From NCBI RefSeq assembly GCF_003312875.1, contig NZ_CP015163.1, forward strand, positions 7,254,001 to 7,318,000: a stretch of DNA of 64,000 nucleotides, written 5' to 3'. Every line of letters starts with the position of its first letter. Within the stretch, counting starts at the first letter, position 1. The stretch comes from Amycolatopsis albispora. GTDB taxonomy: Bacteria > Actinomycetota > Actinomycetes > Mycobacteriales > Pseudonocardiaceae. A program made the translations under genes and the position numbers. Below the pieces are notes generated by a model. That model made no database searches and was not told the DNA's origin. It worked only from the letters and a program-made list of their open reading frames with translations. Below, piece by piece: positions 14,166 through 22,495 of this stretch.

Positions 14166-14182
14166 GTACATTCCGTGTGCAT
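14166..14182 (+). promoter_or_regulatory. Shared 17-bp motif upstream of EspC-like cassette A
   Basis: GTACATTCCGTGTGCAT lies 29 bases before the first start of cassette A. The same sequence with one change stands upstream of cassette B at 19130-19146. It is likely a promoter element or regulator site common to both cassettes. Confidence 0.6.
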
Positions 14183-14211
14183 GAAGCGGTGACCACGATT
14201 GAGGGGGAGTT

Positions 14212-14526
14212 TTGCCAGAGGGTGGTTACAGGGCTGACTCGGACGCCATGGCGGTGGCGCAGGCGCGGCTCAAGGAGCAGGTGGGCAAACCGGCCGCGCA
14301 GGCCGGTCGCCTCGCGCCGCCGAAGGTCAAGCCCGAGGAGTTCGGGCGTCTTCACGCGCACCACTTCGACAGCTACAACGCTGGCGCGGAACAGGTGGCC
14401 GCCGCGTTGAAAGGGCTGTCGGCCGAACTGACCGCGCTCGCCGGCGGAATCGGCGCCGCGGGTCAGAGTTACGCGAGCGCGGACCAGGCGAATGCCGCGC
14501 AGGTCAATCAGCAGGCTGCGTACTGA
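14212..14526 (+). CDS. EspC-like small type VII secretion substrate, cassette A
   Basis: The 104-residue helical protein fits the EspC (formerly DUF2580) family: P41-E-E-F-G, a Tyr-rich second helix, and near the C-terminus GQSYASADQ, with a YxxxD secretion signal at Y87-D91. In mycobacteria EspC is secreted together with the larger EspA, and the next gene here is a large WXG protein. The start is an unusual TTG at 14212 behind GGGGGAG; the alternative ATG within the gene would remove helix 1. The stop overlaps the next ATG (TGATG). The paralog is at 19232-19540. Confidence 0.85.
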   Translation: MPEGGYRADSDAMAVAQARLKEQVGKPAAQAGRLAPPKVKPEEFGRLHAHHFDSYNAGAEQVAAALKGLSAELTALAGGIGAAGQSYASADQANAAQVNQQAAY

Positions 14527-19540: not shown

Positions 19541-21981
19541 TGGCCAAGACGTGGGACGAGGTCAAGGCCGTTCTGGACGATCCGGCCGTCTCGCCGGACA
19601 AGAAGCAGGCACTGCTGCAGTCCTGGTCGAGCAGCAGCAACGAAGCGTGGACGGCCGACGGCTCCAAGCGCGACGAGATCTCCAGGTACCAGGAGGCCTA
19701 CAACGGCCACCCGATCGGTTTCGGTCCGTTCAGCGAGGAATTCACCGACGAGCTGTACGAAGACGCCAAGAAGGAAGGCTCGGAGAACAGCTACAACGAA
19801 CGCGAGCACCAGAAGGAAGTCGACGCGGGCCGGACGGGGCTGGACAGCGCGCAGCCGCCGACCACCGGCGGCGGGGGGACGAAGACTTCCGACGAGCTGC
19901 TCAAGCACGGTGAAGCCGGGCTGAAGGTGTTCGAGGACTTCGGGCCGCTGCTCGGCAAGATCCCGGAGGACTGCCGCGGCCGCACCCGCCCGCTCGACTA
20001 CAACACCGACATCAAGAAGCGGTACGAGGAGCAGAAGGGCATCAACTTCGCGGAGTTCCTGACCGACTCCTCGGACTTCACCACCGCCGCCGGCCAGGTG
20101 CGCCAGGCGCTCAAGGACACGCGCGGGCAGCTCGACGGTCTGTCCAAGAGCTGGACCGGCCCCGCCGCCGACAAGGCGAACGAGCACTACAACGAGAAGA
20201 TCAACACGCCCGGCGACGAGCTGGTCGGCTTTCTCGAGGGCTCCGCGGCCGCCACCTCGACCGCGGTGGACGCCGTCTACCAGCTGGTCAAGGGCAAGGT
20301 CGACGCGGTCATCGACATGTACACGCCGACGGTCGGCAAGGCCGACCTGGACATGGCGACCACCGTGATCAACATCGCGAACGACTCCGCGGCCGGCAAG
20401 GACGAGATGGAGAAGGTCGCCGGCTGGATGGACGTCAACTTCGGCACGAACATGCGTGAGAAGTTGAACGACGACGGCTGCTGCGACGACGACGAGATCA
20501 AAAAAGAGGGCATCCGCCTCGCCAAGCAGTGGATCCAGAACCAGTTCAACGTCGAGATGTGGGACGGGCTCTGGACCAGCTTCGACACCTTGTGCACGGA
20601 AACGAAGGAATTCGTCGACGAGGCCTACACCCAGCTGAACGAGGTCATGGGCAAGGCCGAGAACGGCTTCGCCAACGCCGCGAAGGAGAACCCGCCGCCG
20701 AAGGAGGAAACCGGTGGCGGCGGTGACAACGGCGGCGGCGGTGGCGGCACCGGCGGTGGCGGGTCCGGTTCCGGCGGCGGGGGCACCGGGTCCGGCGGTG
20801 GTGGCACCGGCGGCGGTGGCACGCCTCCTGGCGCGACGGAGCCACCGTCCACTGAGGACAAGGGCACCAACCCGATCACCGGCAAGCCGCTCGAGGTCGA
20901 CCCGGAGACGGGCAAGCCGTACCCGATCGACCCGGAGACCGGCGAGGCGATCAAGGACGCCGGTGACGACGACGACACGATGACCGTCAAGCAGGGCGAC
21001 AACGAGATCAAGATGTCCGAGCCGGGCGACGACGGCAAGATGGACATCTCGATCGACGACGGCACCCCGCCGCCGAAGGACTACAAACTGGACTTCGGCA
21101 ACGGTGAGCTCGGCCCCGACGGCAAGCCGGTCGAGGGCGCCGAAGGTGAAGCGGGTGCCGAGGGCGAGAAGGTCTACAAGCCCGGCCCCGACGGCAAGAT
21201 CGTCATCGAGGACAACGGCGTCAAGATCACCGCCGAGCAGCCGCAGGGACCGAAGGGCCCGACCGTGGTCACGGTTGACGACGGCAAGGGCGAGCCGGTC
21301 ACCTACACGCTCGGCGCGGACAACAAGGGCGAGAAGGACGCGCTCAACGGCCTGGACGACAGCGACCCGACGGGTGGCGCGGGCAGGCCCGACGAGCTGG
21401 CCTCCGGTGGCGGCGGCGCCGGTGCGCCCGGCGCCGAGGGCGACGACGGCTTCAGCGCACCCGGCGGTCTGGACCTGCCCGAAGACGGTGAGGTCGAGAC
21501 CAAGCCCGCTGCCGACGGCGGTGCCGGTGGCTCGGGCGGTGGTGGCGCCGGTGGCGACAGCGGTGGGTCCGCGGGTGGCTCCGGTGGCAGCGGCGGCAGT
21601 GCGGCCGCGGTCGGCGGCAGCGCTGGTGGCGACCTCGGCGACACGGGTTCGCTGTCCGCCGGTGCCCAGGTGGGCGCGGCTTCGCCGGAACCGGCCGCGG
21701 CCGCGGGCCTCGGTTCGACGCCGGGCGGTGCCGGGGTCGGTGCGGGCGCACCGGCAGCCGCGGCGGCCGGCGCTGGCGCCGGTGGCATGGGCGGCATGGG
21801 CATGATGGGCGGCATGGGGGCCATGGGCGGTGGCGCCGGTGGTGGCCAGAGCGGTGACCAGGAGCGCAACTCCAGCCAGTACCGCGTCGCGGGCAACATT
21901 TTCGAGACCAGTGGTGCTGGTGGCCGGATCAGTGGTTCCCTGGACGAGGAAGGCGACCGCTCCATCCGGTACGACCGGTGA
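19540..21981 (+). CDS. Large WXG-containing type VII substrate, cassette B
   Basis: The 813-residue protein is built like its paralog at 14526-16682: helical N-terminal half with W205-T-G207, Gly/Ser/Thr-rich linker (about 390-430), acidic beta region opening NPITGKPLEVDPETGKPYP, a long Gly/Ala tail, and SSQYRVAGNIFETSG with RISGSLDEEGD at the end. An acidic CCDDDE patch in the helical part could bind metal (inference). No enzymatic domain or signal peptide is seen. The polyglycine linker makes this one of the most repetitive coding stretches in the window. Confidence 0.83.
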   Translation: MAKTWDEVKAVLDDPAVSPDKKQALLQSWSSSSNEAWTADGSKRDEISRYQEAYNGHPIGFGPFSEEFTDELYEDAKKEGSENSYNEREHQKEVDAGRTGLDSAQPPTTGGGGTKTSDELLKHGEAGLKVFEDFGPLLGKIPEDCRGRTRPLDYNTDIKKRYEEQKGINFAEFLTDSSDFTTAAGQVRQALKDTRGQLDGLSKSWTGPAADKANEHYNEKINTPGDELVGFLEGSAAATSTAVDAVYQLVKGKVDAVIDMYTPTVGKADLDMATTVINIANDSAAGKDEMEKVAGWMDVNFGTNMREKLNDDGCCDDDEIKKEGIRLAKQWIQNQFNVEMWDGLWTSFDTLCTETKEFVDEAYTQLNEVMGKAENGFANAAKENPPPKEETGGGGDNGGGGGGTGGGGSGSGGGGTGSGGGGTGGGGTPPGATEPPSTEDKGTNPITGKPLEVDPETGKPYPIDPETGEAIKDAGDDDDTMTVKQGDNEIKMSEPGDDGKMDISIDDGTPPPKDYKLDFGNGELGPDGKPVEGAEGEAGAEGEKVYKPGPDGKIVIEDNGVKITAEQPQGPKGPTVVTVDDGKGEPVTYTLGADNKGEKDALNGLDDSDPTGGAGRPDELASGGGGAGAPGAEGDDGFSAPGGLDLPEDGEVETKPAADGGAGGSGGGGAGGDSGGSAGGSGGSGGSAAAVGGSAGGDLGDTGSLSAGAQVGAASPEPAAAAGLGSTPGGAGVGAGAPAAAAAGAGAGGMGGMGMMGGMGAMGGGAGGGQSGDQERNSSQYRVAGNIFETSGAGGRISGSLDEEGDRSIRYDR

Positions 21982-22000
21982 GCGCGCGTGAGGAGTGCTG

Positions 22001-22495
22001 ATGAGCATCACTGACGAAGTGGCGCGGATGCGGGAACGGCTGGACGGTCTCGTCCGGGAGCAGGCCGATCGCCGTGCGCTGCGCGACCGCCAGGCGCAGG
22101 AAGCCAAGGCGAAGGCCCAGGACTACATGTCCAAGCAGATCCAGGCGGCCGAGCGGTACGTCGACCACCGGCGCGAGCTGGGGCGGCGGGAGAAGGAAGC
22201 CGGCGGCTGGGCCACCGAGAAGACGCTGGCCGACAAGAGCAACGTGATGGGCTTCGGCGTCGAGGACGAAGAGGACGGTCCCGGGTTCACCGGGCACGCG
22301 GTGAACACCGCGCCGCCGGTGACCAGGCCCGAGCCGCAACCGGCCGCGTCCTGGCAGCCGCCGCCGGTGGCACCCGCGCCGGAACCGGTCGCGGTGGCCG
22401 AACCGGCCCCCGCCCCGCGCCGGGCGGGCAGGCACGCACGCCGGGAAGAGTCGTTCGACGACGACGACTTCTCGAACAACAGCTGGATGAAGTAG
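22001..22495 (+). CDS. Coiled-coil protein with proline linker and acidic tail, cassette B
   Basis: This 164-residue paralog of 16696-17136 starts at ATG 22001 after GAGGAG. It has a charged coiled coil (1-65), the motif KEAGGWATEKTLADKS, a Pro/Val/Ala linker, a basic patch (RRAGRHARR) and the tail ESFDDDDFSNNSWMK. Conservation of the GGWAT..TLAD block and the Asp-Phe-Trp tail between two otherwise divergent proteins marks these as functional sites. It is the last gene of the cassette, and a terminator follows. Confidence 0.82.
   Translation: MSITDEVARMRERLDGLVREQADRRALRDRQAQEAKAKAQDYMSKQIQAAERYVDHRRELGRREKEAGGWATEKTLADKSNVMGFGVEDEEDGPGFTGHAVNTAPPVTRPEPQPAASWQPPPVAPAPEPVAVAEPAPAPRRAGRHARREESFDDDDFSNNSWMK

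Follow-up and report, generated by a model that had tools for sequence, protein, structure and literature searches.

Analysis of a 64,000-nucleotide stretch of the Amycolatopsis albispora genome, hereafter the window, centred on a row of eight genes located between glmM and glmS, with genes of the type VII secretion system ESX-4 nearby. The row consists of two diverged copies of a three-gene cassette, whose products are designated A, B and C, together with genes for a predicted fatty acyl-AMP ligase (FAAL) and an acyl carrier protein (ACP). In relatives, the same interval is filled by a different acyl-making enzyme, a ketosynthase (KS) with a chain length factor (CLF)-like partner, and because of this replacement the link between the cassette and acyl-ACP looks real. 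The locus is tentatively read here as a cassette for export that is linked to ESX-4 and equipped with an acyl-ACP supply of its own; the lipid would likely be placed on the exported complex, carried by it or passed to partner C. This reading is quite possible and by no means assured. The features of the locus are the following:

14166..14181, + strand: promoter-like motif GTACATTCCGTGTGCA before A1 (genome scan; like element in relatives)
14212..14526, + strand: A1, small protein with YxxxD, EspC/WXG100 type (94 bits against the in-house A profile; no Pfam match)
14526..16682, + strand: B1, large WXG protein with a helical N-part, beta repeats and a low-complexity C-part
16696..17136, + strand: C1, coiled-coil protein (GGWAT..TLAD; acidic tail)
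17133..18794, + strand: FAAL, FadD32-like (TTG 17133; GTG 17121 and 17124 are alternative starts)
18799..19077, + strand: ACP with a DSK serine (GTG start; PF00550, E 7e-11)
19130..19145, + strand: promoter-like motif GTACATTCTGTGTGCA before A2
19232..19540, + strand: A2, small YxxxD protein of EspC/WXG100 type (PF06013 21.4 bits and PF10824 17.7 bits, both below cut-off)
19540..21981, + strand: B2, large WXG protein (AlphaFold model and homology)
22001..22495, + strand: C2, coiled-coil protein (ATG start; GTG 21995 is an alternative)

The eight genes occupy positions 14166-22495 in the order A1-B1-C1-FAAL-ACP and then A2-B2-C2, all on the + strand and placed as in a preliminary description of the window. 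Its claim of two colinear, diverged cassettes around an acyl-AMP ligase and a carrier was borne out by gene-by-gene homology (31-34%) and by the FAAL and PF00550 matches, and the position between glmM and glmS near ESX-4 was likewise confirmed by the borders and by eccB, an EccC-type ATPase and a WXG100 pair. Identity amounts to 33% over 97 aligned positions for A1/A2 (E 7e-20), 31% over 540 for B1/B2 (E 1e-63) and 34% over 119 for C1/C2 (E 2e-15). In both cassettes the ATG of B overlaps the stop of A by 1 nt. The possible FAAL start TTG 17133 overlaps the C1 stop by 4 nt, and the ACP gene starts 4 nt downstream of the FAAL stop.

The glmM gene, present in all 150 sampled genomes of the family, was used as the anchor of a survey, so that loci were not chosen by the feature under study. 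The downstream stretch was taken from 140 of the 149 family genomes other than that of the window (G190, G197, G217, G223, G235, G251, G267, G271 and G282 were left out), and 132 of the intervals were complete. B frames shorter than 300 residues were not counted, and the threshold for counting a ligase was 200 bits; a weak ligase homologue found in many loci, mostly on the - strand behind yjeF, was excluded with 32-83 bits, against 459-667 bits for the locus FAALs of relatives. Named loci (L009-L025) stand outside the counts because some of them repeat survey genomes (for example, L012 and L041). B was present in 121 complete intervals, A, B and C together in 113, and 11 had none; with B in 121 of the 132, the interval usually holds the cassette in this family. 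Outside the family, A and B were found in the same place in three of the four fetched loci (L166-L168, not L169), of which L166 has a B nearest to Mycobacterium and Mycolicibacterium proteins and L167 and L168 were placed by likeness. These Mycolicibacterium-like loci share the A-B order and match the profiles weakly (A 30-38 bits, B 29-42 bits), and in these three neither C nor FAAL, ACP or KS-CLF turned up; the A-B pair of the mycobacterial glmM-glmS interval is presumably Rv3440c-Rv3439c.

FAAL and ACP were found together in seven complete intervals besides the window, namely in all six genomes fetched from the window's genus (code g1) and in one of six from g7. As regards the ligase pair, the outcome counts against the preliminary description: FAAL is present in 7 of the 121 complete cassette-bearing intervals, and absence from most cassette loci is literally the outcome which that description had set against itself. 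Its proposal of a lipid link survives in another form: the pair itself is rare, but KS-CLF replaces FAAL in the same interval. ACP, KS and the CLF-like partner (KS-CLF) occur in 20 other complete intervals, or 21 loci with the incomplete L074; in addition, L048 holds an ACP alone and L034 an 85-residue CLF remnant. No module was present in 103 of the 132 complete intervals, most of them cassette-bearing. Named records of the KS type are Prauserella flavalba (L013) and P. endophytica (L014), and Qaidamihabitans and Crossiella apparently have it too. From these sequences, one cassette clade linked to an ACP module with a variable acyl source would be a better statement than the ligase-pair claim.

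Several features of the KS-CLF module bear on this link. The closest solved relative of both KS (506 bits) and CLF (199 bits) is PDB 6kxd. The Cys-His-His triad of KS is intact in 21 of 21 loci, beside the CLF-type partner and ACP, and the corresponding CLF site is GPNxxIAGGR-like and without Cys in seven of the eight inspected, the eighth not being matched. The 15 top CLF matches among the 150 family genomes all lie in the glmM-glmS interval; at 234 bits and below, some matches are located outside it, presumably in secondary-metabolite clusters. All 17 loci where C directly precedes ACP allow an ACP start that overlaps the stop of C by 4 nt. Together with the overlapping or abutting genes of the window, the occurrence of KS-CLF, a predicted builder of polyketide chains, in place of the predicted loader in sister genera points to an exported complex that probably receives a tailored lipid.

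The distribution of the modules follows the phylogeny of B. Clade membership was read from the drawn FastTree tree, and clade B rows are called linked in module loci and near in the eight loci without a module. Every one of the 30 module loci, the window included, has at least one flanking B of a single clade, and the module is present in 30 of the 38 loci with a clade B and in none of the 92 loci whose B proteins all lie outside it. The B tree implies three exchanges between FAAL and KS-CLF, the smallest number compatible with it, and ACP was present each time; the ACP serine is intact in 30 of 30 module loci. When the KS-type ACP was used as query, the locus ACP was the whole-genome best match in seven of the eight FAAL genomes, that of the window among them, and in G108 it came second (50.4 against 53.0 bits).

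The FAAL of the window reaches up to 502 bits against FAAL profile models, below their cut-offs (484 bits against a cut-off of 975 for the FadD32 model). Among solved structures, FadD32, FadD23 and FadD28 are among the top ones (5ey9, FadD32, 393 bits), together with 5d6j, which was deposited as an acyl-CoA synthase (413 bits over 532 residues). The alignment with 5d6j runs through the FAAL-specific insertion region, and both the adenylation motif YTSGSTREPAG and the C-terminal-lysine motif SSGKVAR are kept. FadD32 is a fatty acyl-AMP ligase that works with a carrier domain and feeds mycolic acid synthesis by Pks13; the window FAAL is similar and adjoins a free ACP, but, unlike the FadD32 setting, its locus has no polyketide synthase (PKS). 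A short P450-like frame lies divergent to FAAL in all 17 FAAL loci other than the window (one genome twice; for example, L037:4875-5807 on the - strand and L029:17005-17931). In the three tested it was below the Pfam cut-off, 3ejb is among its PDB matches, and it is mostly part of a longer mechanical frame; since the window lacks it, it is not essential. The region is also rich in a 16-bp palindromic repeat, CTTTTGCCCGCARAAG, of which 35 of the 41 exact copies in the 9.12 Mb genome, a single contig, lie within 157 kb around the window (7,161,000-7,317,641). The window has 48 matches to CTTYTGCCCGCARAAG with at most two mismatches, counted on both strands so that many sites count twice, against 0.11 expected; sites are found at 17577, 17604, 17965, 18705, 22506 and many more positions, four of them inside the FAAL gene. 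Rfam gave no matches.

The cassette proteins themselves are of known kinds. A is a protein of about 100 residues with a C-terminal YxxxD/E in 32 of 32 module-linked members, YASAD in A1 and YTAND in A2. The label EspC-like, given in the preliminary description, is upheld by size, motif and arrangement and not by the EspC model PF10824, because A1 has no Pfam match and A2 scores 17.7 bits against a cut-off of 23.5. A single Cys at a fixed position is present in 17 of 18 KS-type A proteins (for example, L044:1567-1938), in none of nine of the FAAL type, in none of four of the Crossiella type and in 41 of 107 others, so that this cysteine, considered as an acyl site, is just as likely to serve in a disulphide. 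In B, DWEG (B1) and SWTG (B2) stand at the WXG100 match; B2 168-245 matches TIGR03930 with 28 bits, below cut-off, and W205 and G207 are invariant in 51 sequences. The AlphaFold model of B2 is helical over residues 1-385, with a hairpin of helices 170-204 and 208-260, and has two four-stranded beta units (480-518 and 553-591); the linker and the C-part are mostly below pLDDT 50. Foldseek with B2 gave no match under E 0.001, and its closest homologue outside the genome is from A. magusensis (81%). Stretches of the form DxDxDGxPD, with a calcium-binding look, are found in B in 12 of 124 other, 4 of 22 KS-type, 5 of 8 near and 0 of 9 FAAL-type proteins. C1 and C2 share GGWAT..TLAD and an acidic tail containing W; the AlphaFold model of C2 has one 64-residue helix and a short helix, the remainder being of low confidence, and Pfam on 18 members of C gave only three chance-like families. 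GGWxT is present in 22 of 27 linked, 6 of 7 near and 8 of 107 other C proteins (five of these eight being the first-cassette C of FAAL loci); it is a clade feature and therefore not independent proof of the link.

Upstream of the A genes lies an element of the form GGTACATTCTGTG(TG)CAT..GCGACGGCACC. In the 9.1 Mb genome the exact sequence GTACATTYYGTGTGCA has only two matches, one before A1 and the other before A2. The motif was noticed visually in the window before being scanned for, and its core was thus chosen from the same sequences in which it was counted: 48 of 153 A upstreams have it, against 5 of 3060 shuffled upstreams, and in total it occurs 58 times on the two strands of the loci (5.26 million bases). 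It precedes 13 of 14 A genes in FAAL loci and, in colinear KS loci, 15 of 17 A genes of the clade. The GGTACATT element is predicted to be a candidate shared promoter of both gene rows, and may correspond to a -10 region.

Taken together, these genes could work as follows. A and B are predicted to pair as a helical WXG/PPE-like dimer and to be ESX-4 substrates, and the rows A1-B1-C1-FAAL-ACP and A2-B2-C2, starting from the same promoter kind, would give the particle in two versions. The role of FAAL would be to adenylate a fatty acid and load it on ACP, and that of KS-CLF in relatives to assemble the chain on ACP instead, so that FAAL or KS-CLF would set the chain type. The chain may then be moved to A, B or C, the least certain step, leaving a complex that is lipid-anchored or lipid-active outside the membrane. 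The C gene overlaps that of ACP in the colinear KS loci, and in the window an overlap with FAAL is possible; this makes C the likely meeting point of ACP and cassette. The full version, in which a dedicated ACP charged by FAAL or by a minimal type II PKS lipidates A-B-C before export by ESX-4, is possible but doubtful.

A series of observations weighs against reading an acyl-ACP supply for the exported proteins into this locus. Of the 38 clade loci, eight lack the module (L034 holds the remnant, and L147 ends at a contig end), and A. saalfeldensis (L019) has twin cassettes without ligase, FAAL being present in the other 10 of 11 named Amycolatopsis loci. The B just before FAAL is outside the clade in L037, L039, L040, L042 and L045, as is the B after the module in L075, and FastTree flagged long branches. 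Fisher's test for the clade-module association (p 2e-22) overstates it because there are only three presence changes on the tree and the loci are not independent events. In four Crossiella-type loci (L097, L098, L100 and L103), ACP-KS-CLF lies between C and A in reverse orientation, separating C from A-B, and the upstream core is missing. This core precedes only one of nine A genes of other cassettes in KS loci and is also present before A genes of loci that have no module (14 of 92 where B is of the other kind, 1 of 8 near and 2 of 7 unassigned). The PPE-like fold scores of B2 are within the chance range for helical bundles. In G113 the locus ACP leads narrowly, with 34.6 bits to 33.2, and the KS-type ACP has matches of up to 84 bits among ACPs located elsewhere in other genomes, compared with 34-56 bits for ACPs on the FAAL side; because of these two results a single ACP lineage is not proven. 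No acyltransferase was recognised in the interval, and 13 of 21 KS loci have no unassigned gap of at least 350 bp between mechanical frames, such gaps being found in L049, L062, L068, L105 and the four Crossiella-type loci. An alpha/beta hydrolase was considered as the dedicated acyltransferase and ruled out by its presence in 153 of 162 loci irrespective of module.

The few presence changes, the clade loci without a module, the CLF remnant of L034 and the absence from the window of the P450-like frame seen elsewhere would all fit a plain neighbourhood, in which the module entered the interval, was inherited and was swapped by recombination with no functional link to the cassette. This explanation appears quite improbable: three exchanges took place between unrelated acyl sources with ACP kept each time, the KS catalytic residues are intact in every locus, and the 4-nt overlap with C recurs in 17 of 17. 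A different explanation, which we hold to be unlikely, starts from the location of the interval between two amino-sugar genes and from the 103 module-less intervals, and supposes that the enzymes acylate an envelope lipid or glycan, their adjacency reflecting a shared envelope role near glmM and glmS while A-B-C never touches the acyl group. It sits poorly with the occurrence of modules beside one B clade only (none of 92 other-B loci) and with the overlap of the modules with C in colinear KS loci.

The third explanation is that the true product of the ACP module is a free small molecule, either an acyl compound or a polyene, which A-B-C carries, binds or exports without being acylated itself; doubtful as it is, it merits serious attention. 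KS-CLF is closest to 6kxd, a natural-product (ishigamide) synthase, the P450-like frame in all 17 other FAAL loci fits tailoring of an acyl-ACP chain, the KS-type ACP resembles ACPs elsewhere in the same genomes, and the lack of a recognised acyltransferase points the same way. Yet the interval holds nothing recognised as a gene for release, for a reductase or for transport, profile searches not having been aimed at these, the overlap of ACP with the C stop in 17 of 17 loci is closer than a neighbouring pathway needs, and a FAAL of this type with ACP alone would yield only acyl-ACP.

The assignment of the nearby secretion genes to ESX-4 is based on gene order (eccB, EccC-type ATPase, WXG100 pair). 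The EccB gene lies 4.4-6.0 kb ahead of the window, and eccB, eccC and the WXG100 pair are in the region of rpsI and glmM. Within the window, the flanking features are:

663..4730, + strand: EccC-type FtsK/SpoIIIE ATPase (PF01580, 273 bits, two stretches)
7238..7612, + strand, stop-to-stop frame: ESX-4 WXG100 protein, A-like (A profile E 1e-14; TIGR03930 52 bits)
7657..7944, + strand, stop-to-stop frame: ESX-4 WXG100 protein, B-like hairpin (B profile E 6e-9; TIGR03930 77 bits)
12761..14116, + strand: glmM, left border
22565..23377, - strand: alpha/beta hydrolase, right border ahead of glmS, occurring with and without modules
23447..25369, + strand: glmS, right border

Between the ATPase and the WXG100 pair, positions 4765-6699 encode an Hsp70-like protein (PF00012, 106 bits), perhaps the counterpart of Rv3446c, a name that is our guess. 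The pair at 7238-7944 is presumably the counterpart of EsxU/EsxT and is related to A and B by profile; compared with EsxU/EsxT, the cassette B is far longer, and the cassette has C and lipid enzymes in addition. In mycobacterial ESX-1, EspC-EspA and EspF-EspE are substrate pairs. Like A-B, each has the gene for a small hairpin protein with YxxxD directly ahead of that for a larger partner; the cassette differs from them in that A fails the PF10824 cut-off and in having C, the beta repeats of B and the acyl module. As to the acyl enzymes, 6kxd is Iga11-Iga12, of the highly reducing type II PKS for ishigamide. In comparison with that system, the interval of the relatives shows no recognised reductase, dehydratase or tailoring gene (no profile search was made for them), and its row is shared with type VII-like genes. 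P450BioI acts with acyl-ACP (PDB 3ejb) and HlyC acylates RTX toxin from acyl-ACP; both likewise perform chemistry on an ACP-bound chain, and HlyC is probably the closest precedent for an acyl-ACP lipidating a secreted protein. No HlyC-like acyltransferase was recognised at the locus, and, in contrast to P450BioI, the window is without the P450-like frame.

In the excerpts consulted, ESX-4 is the ancestral cluster, present in Pseudonocardiales, which lack mycolic acids (PMC4791881, which does not mention Rv3439c), and its substrates beyond EsxU/EsxT are still to be identified (PMC11791044). Among the matches listed, no title or abstract opening linked type VII secretion or WXG100 proteins to ACP, ketosynthase, polyketide or FAAL, the excerpt of PMC11004387 describes no such combination of secretion and lipid, and none of the matches listed for glmM/glmS concerned ESX-4. 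The novelty claimed in the preliminary description is accordingly narrowed: the cassette is what this interval normally contains in the family and its A-B part has a counterpart in mycobacteria, whereas the combination of these known kinds of parts, the cassette with an acyl module, was not met in the titles and abstract openings searched.

The locus thus offers a conserved, substrate-like cassette beside ESX-4, in a gene row that holds acyl-ACP enzymes, at a time when ESX-4 substrates are still being sought. If an acyl chain is indeed placed on the exported proteins, this would be a new route of lipidation for secreted proteins, and type II PKS and FAAL enzymes would gain a role new to them; the route would be built from natural-product enzymes, not from the lipobox pathway, in relatives of mycobacteria that have no mycolates. 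Either way, these genes form a testable set in cultivable Amycolatopsis, Prauserella and Saccharomonospora.

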